From positions 248,001 to 312,000 of IMG/VR virus record IMGVR_UViG_3300031884_000002: a stretch of DNA of 64,000 bases. One strand, written 5' to 3'. The notes beneath the pieces are model-generated. The model did no database searches. It worked only from the letters and a program-made list of their open reading frames with translations, and had not been told where the DNA came from. The stretch comes from a virus. A program made the position numbers and the translations under genes. Position 1 is the stretch's first letter; each line of letters starts with the position of its first letter. Shown here in pieces: positions 22,931-54,750 of this stretch.

Positions 22931-23305
22931 TTATTTACGATATATTTGTTGATGGGGCTTGTCTCGTATAAAAGGTTTCATCTCTTCCGATTTAAGAGCC
23001 AATAAAAATGATTCTTTCCAAGAAAGTTCAACTGGATTGCCGACTTCATTCAATGTTTTACTTTCATTGTGTATTTTAGAAGCTAAACTTCTCCATTTAG
23101 AAGCGGCTTTCTTTCTATGATTTTCTTTATCTACTCCGTGATTATTTCTAAAATGTATTTCAAATTGTAATCTAGAATTATCTAACGGGAACATTACAGT
23201 TATAATTCTATCTCCTTCGTATAATATATAATTTTTATTTAATTTACTATATTCTTCATTTATTACTTGAGCTACAGTAGATTTAATTGTTTCTAAAATA
23301 TTCAT
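22931..23305 (-). CDS. Small late protein with head-targeting-like N-terminus (124 aa)
   Basis: I choose the start at 23305 because a TATTTATA octamer ends 4 nt before it; another start codon 18 nt upstream would lie inside the octamer. The N-terminus MNILETIKSTVAQVINEE is an amphipathic helix ending in INE. This fits the (L/I)xE cleavage rule of T4-type prohead proteases. The body is basic and Trp/Lys-rich (RKKAASKWRSLASKIHNE), suggestive of nucleic-acid contact. Head packaging is inferred; the family is unknown to me. Confidence 0.5.
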   Translation of the reverse strand: MNILETIKSTVAQVINEEYSKLNKNYILYEGDRIITVMFPLDNSRLQFEIHFRNNHGVDKENHRKKAASKWRSLASKIHNESKTLNEVGNPVELSWKESFLLALKSEEMKPFIRDKPHQQIYRK

Positions 23306-23309
23306 TATA

Positions 23310-23317
23310 TATAAATA
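23310..23317 (-). promoter_or_regulatory. Late-type octamer TATTTATA (minus strand)
   Basis: Read on the minus strand, it lies 4 nt before the start codon at 23305. Confidence 0.5.
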
Positions 23318-23395
23318 TAACACATATAAATGACTACTAAAAATATTTTCATTTTCTTCGACTTTTTATTCTACGACATTATATGTATATAGTGT

Positions 23396-24364
23396 ATGAA
23401 TAAACAACAATTAAATAAGAAAAAAGTTATATGGGAAGAAAAAAACTTAACAGAACAATCGAAGAACTCCGAATCGCCCGCCGAATTAGACAACAACGAT
23501 TTTATAATAAACACAAAGAACGACTCAATGCCGAAACAATGCGAAAATATTGGGAAAATAAAAAAAATAAATTGGAATAATCCAGTAGAAGTAAAAGAAA
23601 GACAACAATTATATAATCAAAAAAATAAAGAAAAAATTAAATTACAACGTCGTTTATATTATATAAATAACAAACAAAAAGAAATTGAATATGCTAATAA
23701 ATATAATTCCGAAAATAAAGAAAAAATAAAAGAAGCCCGTAAATTAAATAAACATAGAACAAAAGAATATGATTCTAAATATAGACTAAAAAATAGAGAA
23801 AAAATTAAATTACGACAAAGATTTGATTATAAAATAAATACTAAAAAATATTTAGAAAAAGCTCATAGATATAATATAAATCACAGAGAAAAAATAAATA
23901 ATAATGCGAAAATATATAGAAAAATAATAAAAAATAAAGAAAACCGAAAAATATATAATAGAAATTATAATAGAATTAAAAATGTATTAGACGTAGAATA
24001 TAAAATAAAACATAGACTTAGAAATAGGTTGAATAAAATGATACATCGAAACAATAGAACAGCCTCAGCAATTAGCGATTTGGGATGTTCGATGGAAAAA
24101 TTTAAAAAATACATCGAAAGTAAATTTAAACCGGGAATGACTTGGGATAATTATGGAAACAATGGATGGCATTTTGACCATATACGTCCATTAGTATCAT
24201 TTAACTTAACTATTAAAGAAGAATTATTAGAGGCAGTTAATTATACTAATTTACAGCCGTTATGGGCGACAAGTGAAATAGCAAGAAAACACGGAGATAT
24301 GAGTTCAATAGGAAATTTAGAAAAAGGAAATAAAATCATTCTGGGTAAGATACTTCAAATGTAG
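23396..24364 (+). CDS. HNH homing endonuclease, Lys-rich (322 aa)
   Basis: The first 230 residues are extremely rich in Lys, Asn, Arg and Tyr with repeated KNREKIKLR-type units, probably DNA-binding helices. The C-terminal 90 residues hold an HNH core with GWHFDHIRPLVSFNL and NYTNLQPLWA, the form found in many phage HNH endonucleases. It is a free-standing selfish gene between late genes. Its 3' end overlaps the convergent gene by 29 nt. It stops with TAG, a codon used by very few genes in this window. Confidence 0.8.
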   Translation: MNKQQLNKKKVIWEEKNLTEQSKNSESPAELDNNDFIINTKNDSMPKQCENIGKIKKINWNNPVEVKERQQLYNQKNKEKIKLQRRLYYINNKQKEIEYANKYNSENKEKIKEARKLNKHRTKEYDSKYRLKNREKIKLRQRFDYKINTKKYLEKAHRYNINHREKINNNAKIYRKIIKNKENRKIYNRNYNRIKNVLDVEYKIKHRLRNRLNKMIHRNNRTASAISDLGCSMEKFKKYIESKFKPGMTWDNYGNNGWHFDHIRPLVSFNLTIKEELLEAVNYTNLQPLWATSEIARKHGDMSSIGNLEKGNKIILGKILQM

Positions 24365-25157
24365 GATTATTTTCAATAAATAACTTCATTCTATCGTATA
24401 GACTATTATTTATTTTATTATAACTATCTTCACTTATTTCACCCGTTCTATCATCTGAATATTCTGGGGTTTCTTCATCGGAATATGTATTTGGAATTTC
24501 TGGTTTATTTTTTACTGCCGGAACAATTCTTTTAGGTTCTTGTTTATATTTTGGTCTTATTTTTGTAACTGGTTCCAACGTATCTTCTGGAGAAGTGTGA
24601 TCATCCTCTGGGCTGGGTGAGTCACTTGTTACTGGTTTTATTGCTTTTTGTTTATTTTTTTGAATAGATTTTTCAACTGATTTTTGTTGATTGTATTCTG
24701 GCTCAGGTGCTTTAACTCCAGTATCTAAATGGGAGCCTAGACTTATTAAGTGCTTACAAATTCCAATATTTGACTCGTTAAAATTTTTAGGTCGTTGCCC
24801 GTTATTAGTTGACAGTGCGGTTGAACCTATAGGTGCTACTCCTTGTTTATTTAAACCATAGGCATACTTGTATTTAAAATCGGGGCAGGAACACTCGCAT
24901 ATACAATTAACATCTTCTAAACTATTATGTTTTTTAATATCATCATTATAAAATTGTATATAACCTTTGTGCCGGTTGCCCGTGGTAGAAGGATTTGATT
25001 TATATGAAAAAACCATTCTTTCTTGATTGTCTCCAGATTGAACTGATAAATTTTTACTTGAAACTGTTTTAGCCCTATCAATACGTTTAGGATCGGAATG
25101 ACCTAGAAGATCTCTAAATGACATTTTTTCCAATAATAAATCTTTTAATTTAATCAT
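24336..25157 (-). CDS. SWIM zinc-finger late protein, likely head-packaged (273 aa)
   Basis: It opens with MIKLKDLLLEK, the clearest form of the shared head-targeting-like peptide, with LLE as the likely protease site. Residues 80-145 form a SWIM-type zinc finger (CICECSCPDF, then GICKHLISL) of a kind common in large-phage proteins. The rest is a Pro/Ser/Asp-rich, probably disordered tail. SWIM fingers bind DNA or protein. With the octamer promoter, the picture is a DNA-contacting internal head protein; packaging is inferred. Confidence 0.65.
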   Translation of the reverse strand: MIKLKDLLLEKMSFRDLLGHSDPKRIDRAKTVSSKNLSVQSGDNQERMVFSYKSNPSTTGNRHKGYIQFYNDDIKKHNSLEDVNCICECSCPDFKYKYAYGLNKQGVAPIGSTALSTNNGQRPKNFNESNIGICKHLISLGSHLDTGVKAPEPEYNQQKSVEKSIQKNKQKAIKPVTSDSPSPEDDHTSPEDTLEPVTKIRPKYKQEPKRIVPAVKNKPEIPNTYSDEETPEYSDDRTGEISEDSYNKINNSLYDRMKLFIENNPTFEVSYPE

Positions 25158-25169: not shown

Positions 25170-25577
25170 TCATGCGGCAACCAAAGAAGGATGTTCCCAG
25201 AGAGTTAATTCATGTTCGCCATCATCGACTAATTTTATTGTGTGTGCTAATCCTTCATCTCCGATAATATATGCAAGTTTTTCTATTTCTCTAAGTTGAA
25301 ATGATTTAAGTTTTGGAATAGAATTATTTCCTCTTATATATAATTCATCGGTTCCTCCCATCCATATCAACATTAAATATCCGAGTTTATTTAAATCATT
25401 ATATACATCATCTATTCTGTCGGCTAATTCACCGTAATCATAATTTCCATATTTATTTTTTAAAACATTTTCTGCCGCCCAACTAACGTGGTCATCAACT
25501 ACAAATAAATTACCATGAGGGTCGAGAATATATCTTTCTTCTCTGGATTCTAATAGAAGTCGTTTAAGTTTAATCAT
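25170..25577 (-). CDS. Small late protein with head-targeting-like N-terminus (135 aa)
   Basis: It begins MIKLKRLLLESRE, nearly identical to the start of the neighbouring SWIM protein, although the two bodies are unrelated. The body has a DPHGNLFVV strand pair, an acidic helix-rich middle and a C-terminal HELTLWEHPS segment. I do not recognise the family. The identical leader on two unrelated proteins is the best evidence that the leader is a sorting signal. Confidence 0.55.
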   Translation of the reverse strand: MIKLKRLLLESREERYILDPHGNLFVVDDHVSWAAENVLKNKYGNYDYGELADRIDDVYNDLNKLGYLMLIWMGGTDELYIRGNNSIPKLKSFQLREIEKLAYIIGDEGLAHTIKLVDDGEHELTLWEHPSLVAA

Positions 25578-25601: not shown

Positions 25602-26363
25602 TTATAATTGTTCCTTTAATTTAGACCTATGATATTTTACAGCAAATGTAGATATATTATATTTTTCTGCTATTTGAGGAATACTTAATATTTTGGATTT
25701 TATATCATTTATTAAATCATTTTTACAGATTTTCATTCTAAGTTTGGCGTCATTTGCTTTTTGTTTATTTTTTTCAGACATAGCCCCACGTTTTATTCCT
25801 TTGGTTTTGCTTGGATTACTATAATTCATTTTTCGATTTGCTAACATTGTTCTTCTTTCGTCGAATTTAATTTGGCCTTGCTCTGCTCCATATTTATTTA
25901 TAAACCAATCTAATGTAAATCTTCCTTTTGCTTTGTCTTTTTGTTTTTTTAATGCCTCCTCACTATGAGTTCGTCCAAACATAGGATTTCCTTCACCAGA
26001 ACATATGTCACTCATTTTTTCTATAAACGCATCTCTATTTGGATTATATGTTATGTTATCTCCTCCACTTGCTATATGACATATATTATATCCGATTCCT
26101 CTTATATGTGGCTTAAATATATCCAAATAATATTGTTCTCGCTCGAATAGTTTTTCCTGTATTGGTTCTACTTTTTCTAATATTAGAAAACTAAATTTAT
26201 CTTCTCCGTAAAAGTTCCAAGAATGTTGTAATTTTGGGTTTGTATGAATATTTAATTTCAATTCTCTTTTATGGTCGTACCATCGTCTATCTATATCTTT
26301 AGCACTTCCGATATAAAATTTACCAGTTATTTCGTTTGTTATTTTATATATTCCACTTTTCAT
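25602..26363 (-). CDS. GIY-YIG homing endonuclease (253 aa)
   Basis: Residues 1-90 are a GIY-YIG nuclease domain, with GIYKITNEITGKFYIGSA and a catalytic-type Arg in DIDRRWYDH. A NUMOD3-like DNA-binding segment follows (GNPMFGRTHSEEA, about residue 125). The C-terminus has a helix-turn-helix-like IPQIAEKYNISTFAVKYH. This is the layout of Seg-type free-standing homing endonucleases of T4-like phages. It lies just downstream of the major capsid gene, beyond that gene's terminator. Confidence 0.85.
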   Translation of the reverse strand: MKSGIYKITNEITGKFYIGSAKDIDRRWYDHKRELKLNIHTNPKLQHSWNFYGEDKFSFLILEKVEPIQEKLFEREQYYLDIFKPHIRGIGYNICHIASGGDNITYNPNRDAFIEKMSDICSGEGNPMFGRTHSEEALKKQKDKAKGRFTLDWFINKYGAEQGQIKFDERRTMLANRKMNYSNPSKTKGIKRGAMSEKNKQKANDAKLRMKICKNDLINDIKSKILSIPQIAEKYNISTFAVKYHRSKLKEQL

Positions 26364-26478: not shown

Positions 26479-28206
26479 TTAGATCAAGTTAGCATCAGAT
26501 ACCAGTATGATCCCATAAAATTCGGGCCGGACTAGTTTCTTAGCGTAGCGGGTCATTACCCCCCTGCGAGGGGTAAAATTAATTGGATCATACACCAATG
26601 GAGTTTGAATCAAAGGAATATATGGAGAATAAACTGCACCAGTCTCCAAGAAGTTATTACCTCTAAAGCCCATCAAGATCAAGTTTTCTTGCATGTATGG
26701 GTTTTTATATACTTGGAATCTGCTTGCGAATGCTCCAACTTTGGAAACACCCATTGCAAACTTAGCAGAATCACCATCCGTATTAACTACAAATCCGGGA
26801 ATGGATTCCAAGATAGTAGCAACCGTTGGTCCCACGACCATGAAGTTAGCACCACCACGGAGAGTTAATTGATGAATACTATTGGAGATCTTTTGAATCT
26901 TTTGTCCAAGAGTTTGATACCAACTTGATTTGGTGTAGTAACCGAAACCTGCACCAGCGTTAGCAGCCGTTGAGTTATCAATAATCTGATAGCTATTCGC
27001 ACCAGTCTTGATAATATCACGATTGATCTTAGCACTCCAACGTTCCTTGTTGATGTTAGGAGCGCCGTTAATTAACATGTCAAGGATTTCGAGATCGATT
27101 TCCATTGATACATATTCCGACAATAATGCTGTTAATTCTGCTTCGGCATCGACAGAGTGATAAGCATTTAAATCTTGAGCCAATTCAGGAGTCCAAACGG
27201 CTTTCAATTTACGAGTTTTAGCAACAATAGGCTCACTATTCAATTGCAAGTTGATTTCGGGAATACCTATATCTTTATGCAATCCAGTAGAAGTACCACC
27301 AGCATCAGCAGAACCTTCAGTACCATGATCTTCGAAATCACCACGAGAGGTTGGCTCAGGTTGTAATGAGAAGTTAATGGTTGCTGGAGAAGTAATACCA
27401 GATCCACTAACAACGAAAATTAAATCATTAGGAGTATATCCACCATCATTAGGAGTAATGGTTGCACGAGTGAAACCGGGATAGTAGTTCAAAATACCAG
27501 AACCACTAACAGTAAACGAACGGATCGCCGATACATCAGGATATGATCCAGAATTAATATTGATACCGACACCAAATCCAGTAGTAGTAACTGTGAATAA
27601 TGAACCATTAGCTAAAGACGATGAAATCGCTTGATTAACAGGATCATTCACGTTACCAGTATCAAAATTAATATCAGATACACTTGCAGATGCAACTGTG
27701 ATAGAAGCAGTAGCAAAGTGATCATTGATGCTATATGCATAGCGACCAACACCATATAAACCACCAACAGGTGCATCAGTTGAACCGGATTTTACACCAG
27801 TACCACCGAATAATGATTGATAGTTAGTAGGAGAATCAGCAGTGAACGGACCATTTGACGTACCATACTTGAAGTCCAAATAGAATACTAATCCAGATGG
27901 CAAGTTCATGGGCTGTACGGAAACGAACTCCTTAGCAGCGATTTCAGCGAAAACACGGCGAACCAATGGCAAAGCTACACCAGCCCATTGTTCGGAGTTT
28001 CCTTGTGTGCCAGTAGCAGATGATTCTTCAATCAACTGTTTAGCTTGGTTTTCAAGCAATACTGACATGTTGCTCTTCTCGACTTGATTCTTCAAGCCTT
28101 CTAAGAGACCGGTTTTTTCCCATTTGGTTACTAAACCACGGGTTTCTTGTAACAATCTGGCTTGAGGATTCAAGGCAGAGATTAATAGTTGTTTTACATC
28201 ATTCAT
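26479..28206 (-). CDS. Major capsid protein, T4 gp23-like (575 aa)
   Basis: The main hexameric shell subunit. The first 60 residues are a helical prosequence with several LLE motifs. LIEESS at residues 58-63 fits the prohead protease rule and lies close to where T4 gp23 is cut. The core follows with LVRRVFAEIAAKEFVSVQPM and SGLVFYLDFKYG, typical of gp23. Later come LKAVWTPELAQDL and DAEAELTALLSEY, the conserved capsid helix. An Ig-like Gly/Ser-rich insertion lies at about 180-280. The scaffold gene is immediately upstream and a strong terminator follows. The GC content looks higher than in the flanking genes, as expected for a highly expressed gene. Confidence 0.9.
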   Translation of the reverse strand: MNDVKQLLISALNPQARLLQETRGLVTKWEKTGLLEGLKNQVEKSNMSVLLENQAKQLIEESSATGTQGNSEQWAGVALPLVRRVFAEIAAKEFVSVQPMNLPSGLVFYLDFKYGTSNGPFTADSPTNYQSLFGGTGVKSGSTDAPVGGLYGVGRYAYSINDHFATASITVASASVSDINFDTGNVNDPVNQAISSSLANGSLFTVTTTGFGVGININSGSYPDVSAIRSFTVSGSGILNYYPGFTRATITPNDGGYTPNDLIFVVSGSGITSPATINFSLQPEPTSRGDFEDHGTEGSADAGGTSTGLHKDIGIPEINLQLNSEPIVAKTRKLKAVWTPELAQDLNAYHSVDAEAELTALLSEYVSMEIDLEILDMLINGAPNINKERWSAKINRDIIKTGANSYQIIDNSTAANAGAGFGYYTKSSWYQTLGQKIQKISNSIHQLTLRGGANFMVVGPTVATILESIPGFVVNTDGDSAKFAMGVSKVGAFASRFQVYKNPYMQENLILMGFRGNNFLETGAVYSPYIPLIQTPLVYDPINFTPRRGVMTRYAKKLVRPEFYGIILVSDANLI

Positions 28207-28241: not shown

Positions 28242-29690
28242 TTATTTCTTAAGTTTAATTCCCGCAAGTTCTTGGAATCTTACTTTATCAAACGTATTTT
28301 CGGAAATAATTTCCTTGGTTGTTTGATTTTTACCAGAATTAGCAAGACTACGATCAATTCCTTCAGTTATCGACTGTACTTTGGCGGCAGAAATATTAGA
28401 TTTCTTAGGAGCCGTAGAAACAGGATTTCTATTTCCGAGGAACTTAGATGCAGTTGCATAGTTCATTTTAACTTCACGAATGGTTTTGGCGAGGTCAAAC
28501 ATTTCGACAATTTCCATCTTTTGGTTGTGGCCGATGTTGTGTTCTTTAAACAATCTATTCGTGTATAGAAGTTTAGTATTCAACAAGTTGATCTCATTAA
28601 GTTCATTTTTAAGATAATTAATAGCATCTGATTGCTCTTTAATGGTCTGCTTCAATTTAGAAGTTTCCATACTATCTTTAGTTACTGGTCCTTCATTGGG
28701 ACGTTCTGTTTCAGTAGGGTCAGTTCCTTTATTAACAGTTTTAAATGCTCCAGCATCAGGGAAACCAACCTTAGCATCCGTATGTGCCTTACTTTCTTTG
28801 GTAAGTTTAGGAGTTGACATTTTATTTTTATTCACTGGTCCTTCATTGGGACGCTTTATTCCAATTGTTGGATCTTTTCCGCCAACCGTTTCTCCTTCGG
28901 GAATACCATTATGTACATTAGTAATAGTTTCAATTTTAGAACTGGATGATGCCGCTTTACTTGGTTTATTCGATTTTCCGGGAGCACCAGCAATACCAGA
29001 AGAATCTAATGTAGTATCTTCCATAATACATTCTTCCTCTTCTTCTTTCTTATCTTCTGCTTCGATTTCTTTCTTTAAAGATTCAAGCAATTCATCTAAA
29101 TTAACATCTTCTTCGGAAGGAGCACCACCACTTGGAGGTAATTCACCAGTAGATTCTCCACCTTCAGGAGCACCCTCAAATCCACCTTCAGCACCAGTTT
29201 CACCTTCACCAGAATCAGGAGCAACCACAATAACAGGAGCTTGAACAACCGCAGTTCCGGGAGGAGCAGTTTTACCGGCAGGAGCAGGAGTTGCTGTCGC
29301 AGTAGGCTCGGCACCAGTTTCACCTTCGGGAGAACCACCAAAATCACCTTCAGCACCAGCCGTAGGTTCGGCACCAGCATCGGGAGAAGAAGCATCGGCT
29401 CCTTCAATATCAGATTCTAATTCTTTAATCAATTCGTCAATATCACTTTCTTCGACGGCATCTTCTTTAATTGGATTTTGTCCCAATGTTCTAGTTAATC
29501 TACAAGTTCCAGCAACCGTTTGAACGGCACCAGTTTCCATAGCTTCCTTTTTCAATTTTTCAGCAAATAATGCTTTATAATTTTCGTTAAATTGTTCCGT
29601 GAGAGCAATCTTAGCATTTTGCAATGCAGTGTTACGAACTGCTTTGGCAAGTGCGATTGCATCATTGATTTCGGTTTTTGCGTTAGTCAT
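28242..29690 (-). CDS. Prohead scaffold/core protein, gp22-like (482 aa)
   Basis: An acidic, low-complexity protein placed directly upstream of the capsid gene, as gp22 is in T4. The N-terminus (1-65) is helical with LFAEKLKKEA sites that a prohead protease could cut. The middle (80-210) is Gly/Ala/Pro/Glu-rich. The C-terminal 150 residues form a coiled coil (IKEQSDAINYLKNELNEIN) and end in FQELAGIKLKK, likely the capsid-binding tip. Function is assigned from position, acidity and coiled coil; sequence identity to gp22 is weak. Confidence 0.75.
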   Translation of the reverse strand: MTNAKTEINDAIALAKAVRNTALQNAKIALTEQFNENYKALFAEKLKKEAMETGAVQTVAGTCRLTRTLGQNPIKEDAVEESDIDELIKELESDIEGADASSPDAGAEPTAGAEGDFGGSPEGETGAEPTATATPAPAGKTAPPGTAVVQAPVIVVAPDSGEGETGAEGGFEGAPEGGESTGELPPSGGAPSEEDVNLDELLESLKKEIEAEDKKEEEEECIMEDTTLDSSGIAGAPGKSNKPSKAASSSSKIETITNVHNGIPEGETVGGKDPTIGIKRPNEGPVNKNKMSTPKLTKESKAHTDAKVGFPDAGAFKTVNKGTDPTETERPNEGPVTKDSMETSKLKQTIKEQSDAINYLKNELNEINLLNTKLLYTNRLFKEHNIGHNQKMEIVEMFDLAKTIREVKMNYATASKFLGNRNPVSTAPKKSNISAAKVQSITEGIDRSLANSGKNQTTKEIISENTFDKVRFQELAGIKLKK

Positions 29691-36386: not shown

Positions 36387-36910
36387 TTATTTAAATTATT
36401 GAATGGTTTTTGACATAAAATATCAACATAGGTCATTATTTTTTTATACACTTCATCTTCTTTAGTAAATCCAAACCGCTTGGTTGCTTCATCATCAATC
36501 CATTCTCTTAAATTGGTTCCAAACTCCTCCGAACGAGCTTTCCAATCTGCTGCTAATTCCGCCAGATATACATCGGGCATTCCTTTAATCCCAGAACTCC
36601 AAAACTCTGGGTGATGGGCGTTTGTTAAACTATGATGATGAATTGCTAATTTTAATTTTAATTTAGATTCTTCTTCTTTGGTTGGTTGCGTAGAAGACAT
36701 AAACTCAAACTCAATTCCACTGAACTTAGAAGAATCATGAATATATCCATTGGCAATTAACTGTTTTCCTAATTCTAAATGACCTTGTAAAATCAAAGAT
36801 TCTCCTAATAATAGGCAATTATCCTCCACATTTCTAATGTGGCGAGCAATTGAACGTATTTTAACAAGCATTTCTTCGGCTTGTTTTTTCAATCTATCAT
36901 TTCTTTTCAT
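36383..36910 (-). CDS. HD-like (DUF5662-type) protein (175 aa)
   Basis: Conserved-looking metal-ligand positions are NGYIHDSSKFSG (His-Asp), AIHHHSLTNAHHPEFW (several His) and LAELAADWKARSEE. This is the pattern of the DUF5662/HD-domain group, predicted phosphohydrolases. The substrate is unknown; nucleotides are likely. It leads an operon whose next three genes overlap by ATGA junctions. The start at 36910 follows TGGCTTGT, an untranslated stretch also found before the GMP reductase-like gene. Confidence 0.7.
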   Translation of the reverse strand: MKRNDRLKKQAEEMLVKIRSIARHIRNVEDNCLLLGESLILQGHLELGKQLIANGYIHDSSKFSGIEFEFMSSTQPTKEEESKLKLKLAIHHHSLTNAHHPEFWSSGIKGMPDVYLAELAADWKARSEEFGTNLREWIDDEATKRFGFTKEDEVYKKIMTYVDILCQKPFNNLNK

Positions 36911-36919
36911 ACAAGCCAA

Positions 36920-36947
36920 AGTGTATCAGATACTTACCAGAAGTCAA
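36920..36947 (-). promoter_or_regulatory. Sigma70-type promoter of the HD/SLOG operon
   Basis: TTGACT, 16 bp, TACACT on the minus strand, then TTGGCTTGT-ATG. The region from -35 to ATG closely matches that of the gene at 39602. Confidence 0.65.
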
Positions 36948-37199
36948 GTATATTTTAACACTGTATTCATCATTTCTTCATCTATTTCTTTTGAAATCTC
37001 CTCATTCAATATACGCATTAGTTCTTCTCCCGCATCAATATTATAATATGCTGTTAAATTTTGTTCTAATTCAGCAGTCCAAGTGCATTTTAATACTCGT
37101 TTTTGACTTGCCGGTTTAACATTTTTAAGTAAACTTGGAGCAAGTGCCAATGCACCTGTTAATACTGGTAATAATTTAAAAAAAACTTCTTCTATTCAT
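36944..37199 (-). pseudogene. Frameshifted gene: twin-arginine signal joined to capsid-like segment
   Basis: From the ATG at 37199 (preceded by AGAGGA) the frame reads MNRRSFF and hits TAA after a run of eight T. With seven T it continues as MNRRSFFKLLPVLTGALALA, a textbook twin-arginine signal. It runs straight into a 68-codon open segment whose second half (KRVLKCTWTAELEQNL, then GEELMRILNEEI) matches LKAVWTPELAQDL-DAEAELTALL of this phage's major capsid protein. It is a frameshifted gene, a slippery one, or a sequencing error in a homopolymer. The product would be about 84 residues. Confidence 0.65.
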
Positions 37200-43272: not shown

Positions 43273-43899
43273 TTAGTTCAATTCGGAGAGAATGTTATAA
43301 ATCAACTCGTCGGTTCGTTCCCATCGGTTGGTCATTGGATTTTTAACAATTCCTTCGGCAAGTGAAATTTGTTCTACGGGTGCCATAAACGCACCTTGAA
43401 CTGAAGGATTACTTACAAAGTCCCAGCATATAATACTGTAATCATTATTAACTTCAACCGAAGATTCTGATAATTTTCTTACGGAACCAGTTCCACGGCT
43501 TGATATTCCAACTCTGATATTACACTTGAATAACTCTCTCAAAATATTTCCACTTGGAGTTGTTAATACATCAATGTCAGCAATTAAATCATTACCATTC
43601 CATTTAAGACCAACTATATTATGAGATACATTTTTAAGATTTACAACTTCAGTTTCAGCATGGTCTAATTCTCCAACTGCTCGTTTTTCATTTATAAATG
43701 TATTAACATATTCCGATACACTTTTATCCAAAACATCATCGGGATATACTCTTCCATTTTGATTGCGGACACCCTTTCTTTGTACTAAGCCACGAACTCT
43801 AAACGGTTTGGCTTCATTCATTAGGGACTCTTTTAATAAAGTATCATCTACCTCAAATGTTATACATTCTATTAACAATTTTTTATTTATATCATTCAT
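43273..43899 (-). CDS. Prohead protease, T4 gp21-like (208 aa)
   Basis: A serine protease that matures the prohead by cutting scaffold, capsid and internal proteins. Catalytic landmarks are His80 in AVGELDHAE and the Ser in GISSRGTGSV (133-134). The YPDD start of the fold and a WDFVSNPSVQGAFM segment near residue 160 also fit the S78/gp21 group. The N-terminal 30 residues (LLKESLMNEA) carry a possible self-cleavage site. The gene overlaps the upstream endonuclease by ATGA, so it may depend on translational coupling across an inserted gene. Confidence 0.88.
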   Translation of the reverse strand: MNDINKKLLIECITFEVDDTLLKESLMNEAKPFRVRGLVQRKGVRNQNGRVYPDDVLDKSVSEYVNTFINEKRAVGELDHAETEVVNLKNVSHNIVGLKWNGNDLIADIDVLTTPSGNILRELFKCNIRVGISSRGTGSVRKLSESSVEVNNDYSIICWDFVSNPSVQGAFMAPVEQISLAEGIVKNPMTNRWERTDELIYNILSELN

Positions 43900-44630: not shown

Positions 44631-45485
44631 TTATTTTTCTCTATAAACCTTCTTTATTCGTAAATCCCAATATTGGTCTTTTTTATTCTCTTCCAATTTA
44701 ACAACTTTTAACAACGGGGCTTTATTATAAAATAGATTTTGTAAACCTTTATTATCTAATTGATATTTTAACATATTGGACGGTATTTTTAATTCAAATA
44801 CCGATACTATTACTCCATGTTCTTTTCGGTCAGTCCAACCTATTTTTTTAACTAAATCTTTTAACGGAGTTTCTTTTTTCTTTAACAGTAAAGGAAGCCA
44901 TGATTTAATATCTTCAGTTATATCGAAAATTGAATATGCCTCATAATGTTTATTAACATTAACATCTTTTTCTTCTTCTTTAATATGAGATATAGGTTCC
45001 GGATTTAAAACAGGGACTTTAGATTGATTGCTATTAGGGCTATTATTGACAGGATTAGGATTATTGTTATTATCATGTGGAACCTCCGGTTGTTTAATTT
45101 GGGCTGGATTGACTCCCTTTTGAGGAGATGGTTGACCGGTTGCCTGTCCTATAATTTTAATTTTCTCACTCGTGGATAAAAAATATTTTTTTGGTTTAGA
45201 TGACATATCAGTAGCAATTATCACATAATGCCCATAATAATTTTCAATTGTAACGTTATTTATATCAAACTCATATTTGGTAGAAAACTGTTTATATCCT
45301 CTTGAAGATTTAGCAATAACTCTTTTACCCTTTAGATATTGGTTAATTTTAGTTTGATATTTTTTAATCAATTCTTTAGATTCTGTTTTTAATGAAGTTA
45401 AGAATTCAGAATACTCAATTCCAATATCAAAAAATTGAAGATTATCATCTGTTGTATTTTCTAACAATGTCGCTAATATTATCAT
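44631..45485 (-). CDS. Prohead core-type protein (284 aa)
   Basis: Begins MIILATLLENTTDD, with LLE as a possible protease site. Residues 20-115 form an alpha/beta domain. A Pro/Asn/Gln-rich flexible linker lies at 120-170, and the C-terminal 110 residues are a second domain (YSIFDITEDIKSWLPLLL). Its position between portal and protease matches that of T4 gp67/gp68 core genes, but I see no direct similarity. Its ATG overlaps the upstream endonuclease remnant's stop (ATGA). Confidence 0.5.
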   Translation of the reverse strand: MIILATLLENTTDDNLQFFDIGIEYSEFLTSLKTESKELIKKYQTKINQYLKGKRVIAKSSRGYKQFSTKYEFDINNVTIENYYGHYVIIATDMSSKPKKYFLSTSEKIKIIGQATGQPSPQKGVNPAQIKQPEVPHDNNNNPNPVNNSPNSNQSKVPVLNPEPISHIKEEEKDVNVNKHYEAYSIFDITEDIKSWLPLLLKKKETPLKDLVKKIGWTDRKEHGVIVSVFELKIPSNMLKYQLDNKGLQNLFYNKAPLLKVVKLEENKKDQYWDLRIKKVYREK

Positions 45486-53874: not shown

Positions 53875-54750
53875 ATGATTAGTTTAAAACAATTATTAGA
53901 AGGAATATCGTATCTATCAAATACTAATAAACTGAATTTTAGTTTTGATAGTGATTTTCCAGCACCCGACGATAATTTAATATACTTGAAACCAAATAGA
54001 AGAAATTCTAGGTTATATAATATAAAAGGATTTAAAATTTTTTATGGATATTATTTCAATCGAAATTTTACTCCTAATAAACCTTCGTATTTTAAACCAA
54101 ATAATACACAATCTATAAATGATGCAAGAACAACAATAAAACACGTTGATATTAAAAAAATATATATGTTTAATGGGATGGATTCTGCTGGAAATTATAC
54201 ATGGACTAGGGATGAATCTCCAATTATAAAAATGATAGATTTAGCAATTGAACGATTTTCTGAATTGGTAGATTTAAACTCATTTACATCCATCATATCG
54301 GCTCCTTCTAGTTCTCGGTTGAATGATTTAATATTAGATAGATTTCAAATGAGTGTTGGAACCCATATAATTACAAAAAATGCACTTCAAAAAAATGAAA
54401 TAAATCAAATTGCATATTTTATGGATGAATATAATAAATTAAGCGATGACGGTAAGCGAAAATTTCACTCTGTAAAAAACGGAATTGTTAAAAAAACAGG
54501 AACATTTGAAATGAAACACGTCCCTCCTACTATGCGAAGTTTATTCCATAATTTTATATCATTGAAACAAAATAATCAAAAAGAATCTATTAAAATAGCA
54601 AATAAAATATCAAATGGAAAAGTTTTAATAATAGACGATACTATAGGAACTGGTGGAACATTTTTAGAAATAGTTAGAGAAATAAAACCATTAAAACCAA
54701 AAGAAATATATTTATTTGGACTTTTGCAAGATTATTATTATAGTGTATAA
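53875..54750 (+). CDS. Phosphoribosyltransferase-like protein with head-targeting-like leader (291 aa)
   Basis: Opens with MISLKQLLEGIS: the shared leader, with LLE followed by Gly, which is a textbook T4 prohead protease site. The C-terminus (252-262) has IIDDTIGTGGT, the PRPP-binding loop of type I phosphoribosyltransferases (ComF/Apt-like fold), after GKVL. The middle (AIERFSELVDL, ISAPSSSRLNDLI) fits the core strands. The reaction needs PRPP; the acceptor base is unknown. A head-packaged enzyme that could be injected with the DNA is inferred from leader and promoter. Confidence 0.7.
   Translation: MISLKQLLEGISYLSNTNKLNFSFDSDFPAPDDNLIYLKPNRRNSRLYNIKGFKIFYGYYFNRNFTPNKPSYFKPNNTQSINDARTTIKHVDIKKIYMFNGMDSAGNYTWTRDESPIIKMIDLAIERFSELVDLNSFTSIISAPSSSRLNDLILDRFQMSVGTHIITKNALQKNEINQIAYFMDEYNKLSDDGKRKFHSVKNGIVKKTGTFEMKHVPPTMRSLFHNFISLKQNNQKESIKIANKISNGKVLIIDDTIGTGGTFLEIVREIKPLKPKEIYLFGLLQDYYYSV

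Follow-up and report, generated by a model that had tools for sequence, protein, structure and literature searches.

Does a ten-residue N-terminal leader carry a zinc-finger protein into the head of a jumbo phage, and might this protein then reach the host cell together with the genome? The question is raised by an open reading frame in the 64,000-nucleotide stretch of DNA analysed here (the window), which is part of a virus record of 353,772 bases (labelled G000). The original prediction described this frame as a SWIM zinc finger placed behind a head-targeting leader, whose injected product could act on host DNA or recombination proteins. The gene and its product show the following features:

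24336-25157, minus strand: SWIM open reading frame, 273 residues with an ATG start, made of the leader, a SWIM-like domain (to about residue 145), a Pro/Glu/Lys-rich linker and a tail
25128-25157, minus strand: leader MIKLKDLLLE (ten codons), similar to the capsid targeting sequence of T4
25128-25136, minus strand: predicted prohead-protease site L8-L9-E10 with a putative cut after E10, suggested by [LI]-x-E conservation
24750-24905, minus strand: core of putative zinc ligands, C85, C89xC91 and C134xH136
C-terminus of the protein: tail NPTFEVSYPE, kept in part of the family

The SWIM domain and its family

The protein carries the motif C89xC91PDF followed by GIC134KH136L, with 42 residues from C91 to C134 (CxC-x42-CxH), a spacing longer than in classical SWIM fingers. 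The Pfam SWIM profile (PF04434) returned 12.1 bits for the whole protein and 14.7 bits for residues 1-160, below the curated cut-off of 19.6. Since a scan of the whole genome record with this profile gave no match, the domain had to be demonstrated through its own family, and the SWIM label rests on the conserved family and not on a Pfam match.

An AlphaFold2 model of the protein showed a mean pLDDT of 85.5, the first ten residues averaging 64 and residues 11-140 averaging 81-95 in blocks of ten. Two phage proteins annotated as SWIM-type domain-containing, from Motura (E 9.7e-8) and BcepSauron (E 6.0e-7), were among the best fold matches in BFVD. Searches of the PDB returned no protein by sequence and no match by fold at E up to 0.001 (best VIA Z 3.7). 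The weak PDB fold matches, for example to NTF2-like folds and PUR repeats, gave no function for the protein, and the likeness to PUR repeats (Z 3.7) was set aside because unrelated rows score equally.

Related loci were searched with the single protein and with a three-row alignment as queries, both of which retrieved the same two relatives, while a DNA pattern for the CxCPD core retrieved 67 viral loci. On reading, 54 of these were assigned to the group of the window (A) and 13 to a second group (B); a script had divided them into 48 and 19, and L015, L019, L028, L038, L044 and L076 were moved to group A. Two of the 54 loci are the L001 and L002 contigs again, and some contigs are near-copies. 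A tblastn search of cultured phages with the L018-type domain found nothing. An alignment of 37 sequences was built from 36 of the 47 script-listed rows and the window protein. C89, C91, C134 and H136 are invariant in all 37, the CxC pair being fixed by the search pattern and CxH only by the choice of rows. The finger that had been predicted is thus present and conserved in its zinc-ligand pattern. The Pfam SWIM profile matched 28 of the aligned proteins at E up to 1 (best 0.0012), and phrog_18980, of unknown function in PHROG, matched 36 of the 37.

The triplet [LI]-x-E stands ahead of the SWIM domain in 37/37 aligned proteins (34 with L, 3 with I), behind upstream parts of 6 to 21 residues, in rows picked with E required and L/I left free. 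A wider set was drawn from 76 frames with a family match, with L205 (motif CDCNCPDM) set aside and duplicates counted once; 15 of the 76 had no recognised domain start, belonging to group B or being truncated at the 5' end. Here [LI]xE occurred in 30 of 32 N-terminal rows, the misses being L028 and a scoring error, L067, whose true boundary is PLQE followed by VLTF. It also occurred in 16 of 17 rows scored as internal, some of which have a long upstream part that is merely an untranslated frame, over a background of 369 in 28,216 positions. L028 is a family member without the leader, though its record carries gp21 and gp23. Conservation over the predicted cut site could also belong to the first helix of the SWIM domain itself.

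At the other end of the protein, a P-x-F-x-[VI]-x-Y-x-[DE] stretch closes many SWIM proteins of the clade behind a variable linker. It was found by regular expression in 14 of 65 distinct tails, with five further GPF variants recognised by eye, and could be a second docking peptide.

The leader MIKLKDLLLE

In T4, the first 10 residues of IPIII are sufficient for packaging; within its leader, residues 4 and 7 are important in targeting and residues 8 and 10 in processing, and gp21 cleaves behind L/I-X-E, as described in the available text of PMC9026906. The leader of the window protein agrees with the T4 capsid targeting sequence at L4, L7, L8 and E10, and so has the L/I-x-E end.

A degenerate DNA form of the leader gave five matches in the genome record of the window, two of which are the SWIM gene and its neighbour, the very genes used to build the pattern, and none when the pattern was read backward. 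A variant with E at position 9 gave three matches, against one for the backward control; two are real-looking genes and the third (L008) is a frame of only 25 residues. Public viral contigs yielded at least 142 matches in at least 119 loci, with one closed open reading frame shorter than 60 residues among the matches listed, and the reversed pattern gave none in the same 119 loci. With the leader removed, 133 bodies from the matches listed fell into 75 BLAST clusters. Position 8, left free among F, L, I, M and V in the scan, was L or I in 129 of the 142 matches listed.

A further test fixed only MIK[LF] and used 33 open reading frames from the loci fetched by the SWIM pattern and from the window; these are not independent, as they include the SWIM gene, its neighbour and some homologous pairs. 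Position 7 was L or I in 31/33, position 8 was L, I or V in 31/33 and position 10 was E in 26/33, and from position 11 onward no residue dominated. The leader is therefore not a product of chance, and the frame does begin with it, immediately ahead of the finger, as originally predicted.

Other genes carrying the leader

The same leader or a close variant was found on other genes of the window:

25170-25577, minus strand: neighbour gene directly upstream of the SWIM gene, MIKLKRLLLE followed by an "HxxWA" domain
22931-23323, minus strand: neighbour gene with VINE followed by EYSKLNKNYILYEG ("LYEG" domain), GTG or internal ATG start
44631-45485, minus strand: gene with the leader variant MIILATLLE, body without a Pfam match
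53875-54750, plus strand: gene opening with the variant MISLKQLLE, its body phosphoribosyltransferase-like (27.6 bits with PF00156 against a cut-off of 26.3)

The bodies found behind the leader are unrelated to each other and comprise GNAT-like (weak, below the cut-off), 2H phosphoesterase, ADP-ribosyltransferase (ART), phosphoribosyltransferase and, by reading, poly(A)-polymerase/CCA-like proteins. Tandem arrangements of leader genes are common, and L041 has seven consecutive ones when variants are counted.

Some leader genes of the genome lie outside the window. The leader MIKLKNMLNE precedes a 2H phosphoesterase at L003:1527-2306 (minus strand; G000:231429-232208), which scored 33.9 bits with 2_5_RNA_ligase2, over the cut-off, and 24.6 bits with Acb1, below the cut-off of 27; this protein is possibly a head-carried anti-CBASS enzyme. 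A leader-tagged protein at L004:82-1530 (minus strand) is ART-PolyVal/KptA-like (E 4.2e-9), and the leader-tagged L005 protein from G000:237127 (minus strand) is CCA/poly(A)-polymerase-like by reading only.

Shared N-termini of other kinds were also observed. Six tandem genes at L040:10159-13135 (minus strand) have in common the N-terminus MK[IT]RxGFVSNSSSSS(F/Y) or SSSASF with differing continuations, and two tandem genes at L048:12384-13262 (plus strand) start with MFTYKQFFSSLLTE and MFTYKEFFNYLYE, a second leader type, on a contig that also holds a MIKLKDLLNE gene. The leader genes of the window are flanked by two genes assigned by reading, an HNH-like gene at 23396-24364 (plus strand), which overlaps the 3' end of the SWIM gene by 29 bases on the opposite strand and for which Pfam returned nothing, and a GIY-YIG-like (homing endonuclease) gene at 25602-26363 (minus strand).

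Capsid genes and their co-occurrence with the SWIM gene

Two genes separate the SWIM gene from that of the major capsid protein, and the window holds the following head genes:

26479-28206, minus strand: major capsid protein gp23 (PF07068, E 3.8e-71), with LIE at residues 58-60 by reading
28242-29690, minus strand: probable scaffold or core protein and candidate gp22-type receiver of the leader, suggested by its position adjoining gp23 and its acidic make-up, with no significant profile match
43273-43899, minus strand: gp21-type prohead protease (PF03420, E 2.2e-22), itself starting MNDINKKLLIE

A gp23-like fragment at 36836-37099 (minus strand; E 3e-11) contains two in-frame TGA codons and seems to be left over from a second capsid gene.

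Co-occurrence of the SWIM gene with the protease and gp23 was evaluated in 48 records, namely 47 of the 54 group-A loci and the genome record of the window, the short contigs L015, L016, L040, L041, L054, L055 and L056 having been excluded. The gp21-type protease was detected in 25 of the 48 and gp23 in 33 (31 over the cut-off), and each was detected in all 19 records of at least 70 kb. The records without the protease are shorter contigs, yet the 65-kb record of L068 also has none.

Starting from gp23 instead, the best 80 of at least 599 related loci were inspected, and nine have a SWIM gene downstream of gp23 inside the 10-kb flank. All nine are among the 12 top-ranked loci, of which the other three end 0.6-2.1 kb after gp23. 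The gene is absent from the 68 lower-ranked loci, 28 of which have 5.5 kb or more downstream, and its absence from the remainder, with less than 5.5 kb, means little. On these sequence data, the SWIM gene looks like a fixed gene of the clade of the window and not an occasional one. The MIK[LF] leader was found in only 18 of the same 80 best-ranked loci and is thus not general among phages with gp23.

Taken together, the T4-like register, the end matching the gp21 consensus, the unrelated carriers, the nearness to gp23 and the presence of a gp21-type protease in the phage give good support to the identification of the leader as a head-targeting sequence. That part of the original prediction can be upheld on these grounds, while injection is the part that goes further and is put forward here as a proposal.

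Fused forms of the proposed cargo

The separate leader-tagged neighbours of the SWIM gene in the window occur fused to the SWIM domain in relatives. The HxxWA domain lies ahead of SWIM in L213, L214 and L215, and the LYEG domain lies behind it in L017, L018 and L041. Among 17 LYEG rows, 12 are true LYEG domains and five come from another family; in all 12, x-x-E is found at or within two residues of the domain start, the first place being I or L in 10, V in one and M in one. This holds where the domain stands alone (VINE in the window, TLNE in L059, LINE in L016, WIFE in L056) and where it is internal (NINE in L018, SITE in L017, TITE in L041, and others). For the HxxWA rows, [LIV]xE occurs within 12 residues before the domain in 4/9, a count that supports nothing alone because the domain boundary is not sharply defined.

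Larger fusions were also found. In L059, a Nudix domain (PF00293, E 1.5e-21) and a thymidylate kinase (PF02223, E 1.3e-25) are joined to SWIM, which keeps FKKVMREVLTE ahead of it. An 819-residue frame in L208, whose domains are named by likeness to L059, reads MPLLRDILLNE, Nudix-like domain, LLTE, kinase-like domain, a stretch MIKMSDLMRDS...ILCE, LYEG domain, SLNE and SWIM domain. Ten proteins have real upstream domains or extensions (L022, L025, L034, L042, L059, L078, L208, L213, L214 and L215); nine have [LI]xE before SWIM, and L034 has VxE.

A comparable array exists in the cultured jumbo phage Atu_ph07, where the tandem genes gp053-gp058 all start with M[KR]W..L[TN]E; gp053 has VTE followed by GVNDKHIFKAIFTAGGPGSGK, and a leader-tagged gene in L157 reads FITE followed by GVDDPAIFKAVFLAGGPGSGK. 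According to the available text of PMC6102473, 29 proteins of the gene cluster CDS 31-76 were found in virions of this phage. The array gp053-gp058 falls within that cluster, which does not imply that its products are among the 29; the numbering of the record agrees with that text at gp198, gp204 and gp215.

These arrangements allow a tentative model, which we consider possible but would not yet favour: the injected cargo might be a modular set with one short tag doubling as a protease site, encoded either as separate genes or as head polyproteins that the prohead protease would cut at [LI]xE. SWIM would then be the constant member of the set in this clade and would give the entering genome a recombination factor already at hand.

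Leaderless relatives in recombination neighbourhoods

Nine regions of cultured phages were examined, taken from listings of 80 and 81 records with SWIM relatives. The SWIM relative precedes an SSB gene in seven of the nine, and a RecA/UvsX gene is also visible in six of these seven; the Alexandra region ends inside SSB. A sigma factor is annotated in six of the seven. In the remaining two regions the relative is more distant, and its gene lies between neck and sheath genes in SP-15 and beside a baseplate gene in phiLo. The genome of the window has a RecA-type gene of its own at G000:200866-201489, away from the SWIM gene.

The homologs of Motura and BcepSauron begin MLTFPQI and MLTLPQI respectively, level with M12-S13-F14 of the window protein, and are thus missing just the leader and K11, so that they begin almost at the predicted cut. 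In PaBG and Sen-NF the N-terminus is extended differently and by a longer stretch. The available main text on PaBG makes no mention of gp120 or SWIM and reports 14 proteins identified by staining (PMC7412058), a silence that says little, since further virion-associated proteins exist whose names are not given there.

Because the leaderless relatives sit beside SSB, RecA and UvsX genes, the SWIM domain probably originated in DNA metabolism and acquired its leader on becoming head cargo. The predicted action on host DNA or recombination proteins is still a guess, to which these neighbourhoods (seven of nine with SSB, six with RecA/UvsX) lend one indirect support. They may point to the recombination and DNA handling of the phage itself as much as to targets in the host.

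Proposed mechanism and alternative explanations

Several elements are read directly from the sequence: the leader and its recurrence on proteins that are not related, a conserved site of the protease type, the conserved zinc ligands, and the genes for gp23 and the protease in the window. On this basis, we consider it probable, though by no means assured, that the SWIM frame encodes an internal head protein of the T4 IP/Alt type in a T4-like jumbo phage, which would use its leader for loading, be cleaved behind E10 and leave the head together with the DNA. MIKLKDLLLE, laid out like the capsid targeting sequence of T4 IPIII, would dock the precursor to the prohead core. The gp21-type protease would then cut after LLLE10, and the mature protein, starting from K11, would remain in the head with the DNA. 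It would next enter the cell with the genome, like T4 Alt and many internal proteins. Finally, since the leaderless relatives adjoin genes for SSB and UvsX/RecA-type recombinases, the SWIM protein might act on the entering or recombining phage DNA, probably with these partners, a step that we propose with less confidence than the others.

The leader might instead take the SWIM protein into the prohead core to work there, in core assembly, DNA condensation or genome arrangement, as a structural or morphogenetic protein of the head or neck with no effector role in a new host. The apparent fixation of the gene near gp23 in the clade, seen in nine of the 12 nearest gp23 loci with the other three too short, fits such a role, as do the relatives in SP-15 and phiLo among neck, sheath or baseplate genes and the location of the SWIM gene of L001/L002 between a tail sheath-like frame and a pre-terminase gene (by reading only). 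However, the leaderless relatives keep company with DNA-recombination genes, and the enzyme-like bodies that carry the same leader would make little sense as structural parts, so that we regard this explanation as rather unlikely.

A lower probability still is given to the possibility that the protein is not packaged and that the leader is an amphipathic N-terminus with another use, which might for example dock the protein to a complex for replication or assembly or be a feature of translation start, the SWIM protein working with the recombinase in the producing cell. Packaging is indeed deduced from sequence, and homologs without a leader are retained near recombination genes in Motura, BcepSauron, PaBG, Lu11 and others. 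Several observations speak against this possibility: the leader matches the T4 capsid targeting sequence exactly in register and ends in L/I-x-E, it co-occurs with gp21 and gp23, and the M[KR]W..L[TN]E array of Atu_ph07 lies in the cluster that supplied the 29 virion proteins (PMC6102473, available text). Least credible of all, to the point of being nearly dismissed, is a leader without function of its own that was propagated because gene starts of this kind recombine readily or because the 5' ends of genes were duplicated; the frequent tandem arrangement, as in L041, would agree with such a history, but conservation breaks off sharply past residue 10 and holds for the protein sequence, and the fused proteins mostly retain [LI]xE internally.

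If the preferred reading, that of an ejected internal head protein, is correct, ten N-terminal residues would predict which unknown proteins of these jumbo phages are taken into the head and take effect within the first minutes after infection. A list of injected effectors, comprising ADP-ribosyltransferase-like, 2H-phosphoesterase/Acb1-like, Nudix, kinase and SWIM proteins, could then be drawn from sequence for phages represented solely in metagenomes. From the fused forms it would follow that the capsid protease also frees several effectors from one precursor, and the SWIM protein would tie a zinc finger of the recombination type to the incoming genome.

Comparison with known systems

Short capsid targeting sequences (PMC9026906, PMC5694885) and injected multidomain proteins (PMC5512222) are already known from the available texts of these sources. 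A SWIM protein as head cargo, a MIKLK leader family across metagenomic jumbo phages and gp21-type sites retained where fused cargo modules join did not turn up in the open-licence literature searched, including PMC7824862, as far as the texts were available.

The closest parallel is offered by IPI-IPIII and Alt of T4, which share with the present system an N-terminal leader of about 10 residues with hydrophobic residues at positions 4 and 7 and an L/I-x-E end, a genome that also encodes gp23 and a gp21-type protease, and the use of one leader on unrelated proteins (PMC9026906). The present system differs in the letters of the leader (MIKLK...), in the many tagged genes and in the fused cargo with internal sites, and its packaging is presumed; a SWIM cargo is not mentioned for the T4 internal proteins in the available text of that source. 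The ejection proteins of SPN3US and phiKZ (PMC5694885) are likewise head proteins of jumbo phages whose propeptide is removed by a gp21-like protease, as is presumed here. In the available description, several of these propeptides exceed 100 residues, only gp45 (20 residues) is named as having the length of a T4 capsid targeting sequence, and no common short tag is named, unlike the leader found here.

Polyvalent proteins (PMC5512222, available text) resemble the present cargo in being multidomain, in their predicted co-injection with DNA and in combining ART with other effector domains, and the leader-tagged L004 protein from the genome of the window matches Pfam ART-PolyVal. Their processing has been proposed to occur through zincin-like metallopeptidases, whereas here gp21-type [LI]xE junctions and a short leader are seen.

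As for the finger itself, the SWIM-type proteins of Motura, BcepSauron, PaBG, Lu11 and Alexandra have no leader and are encoded beside SSB and RecA/UvsX genes. The zinc ligands are the same as in the window protein in the four leaderless proteins aligned (Motura, PaBG, BcepSauron and Sen-NF), with CENF in PaBG and Sen-NF at the place of CPDF. Shu2/SWS1 proteins, which act with RAD51, have in common with the window protein a SWIM-type motif and a link to the RecA family, which for the window protein is a putative one based on the gene neighbourhoods of its leaderless homologs, a likeness drawn from the available descriptions only.
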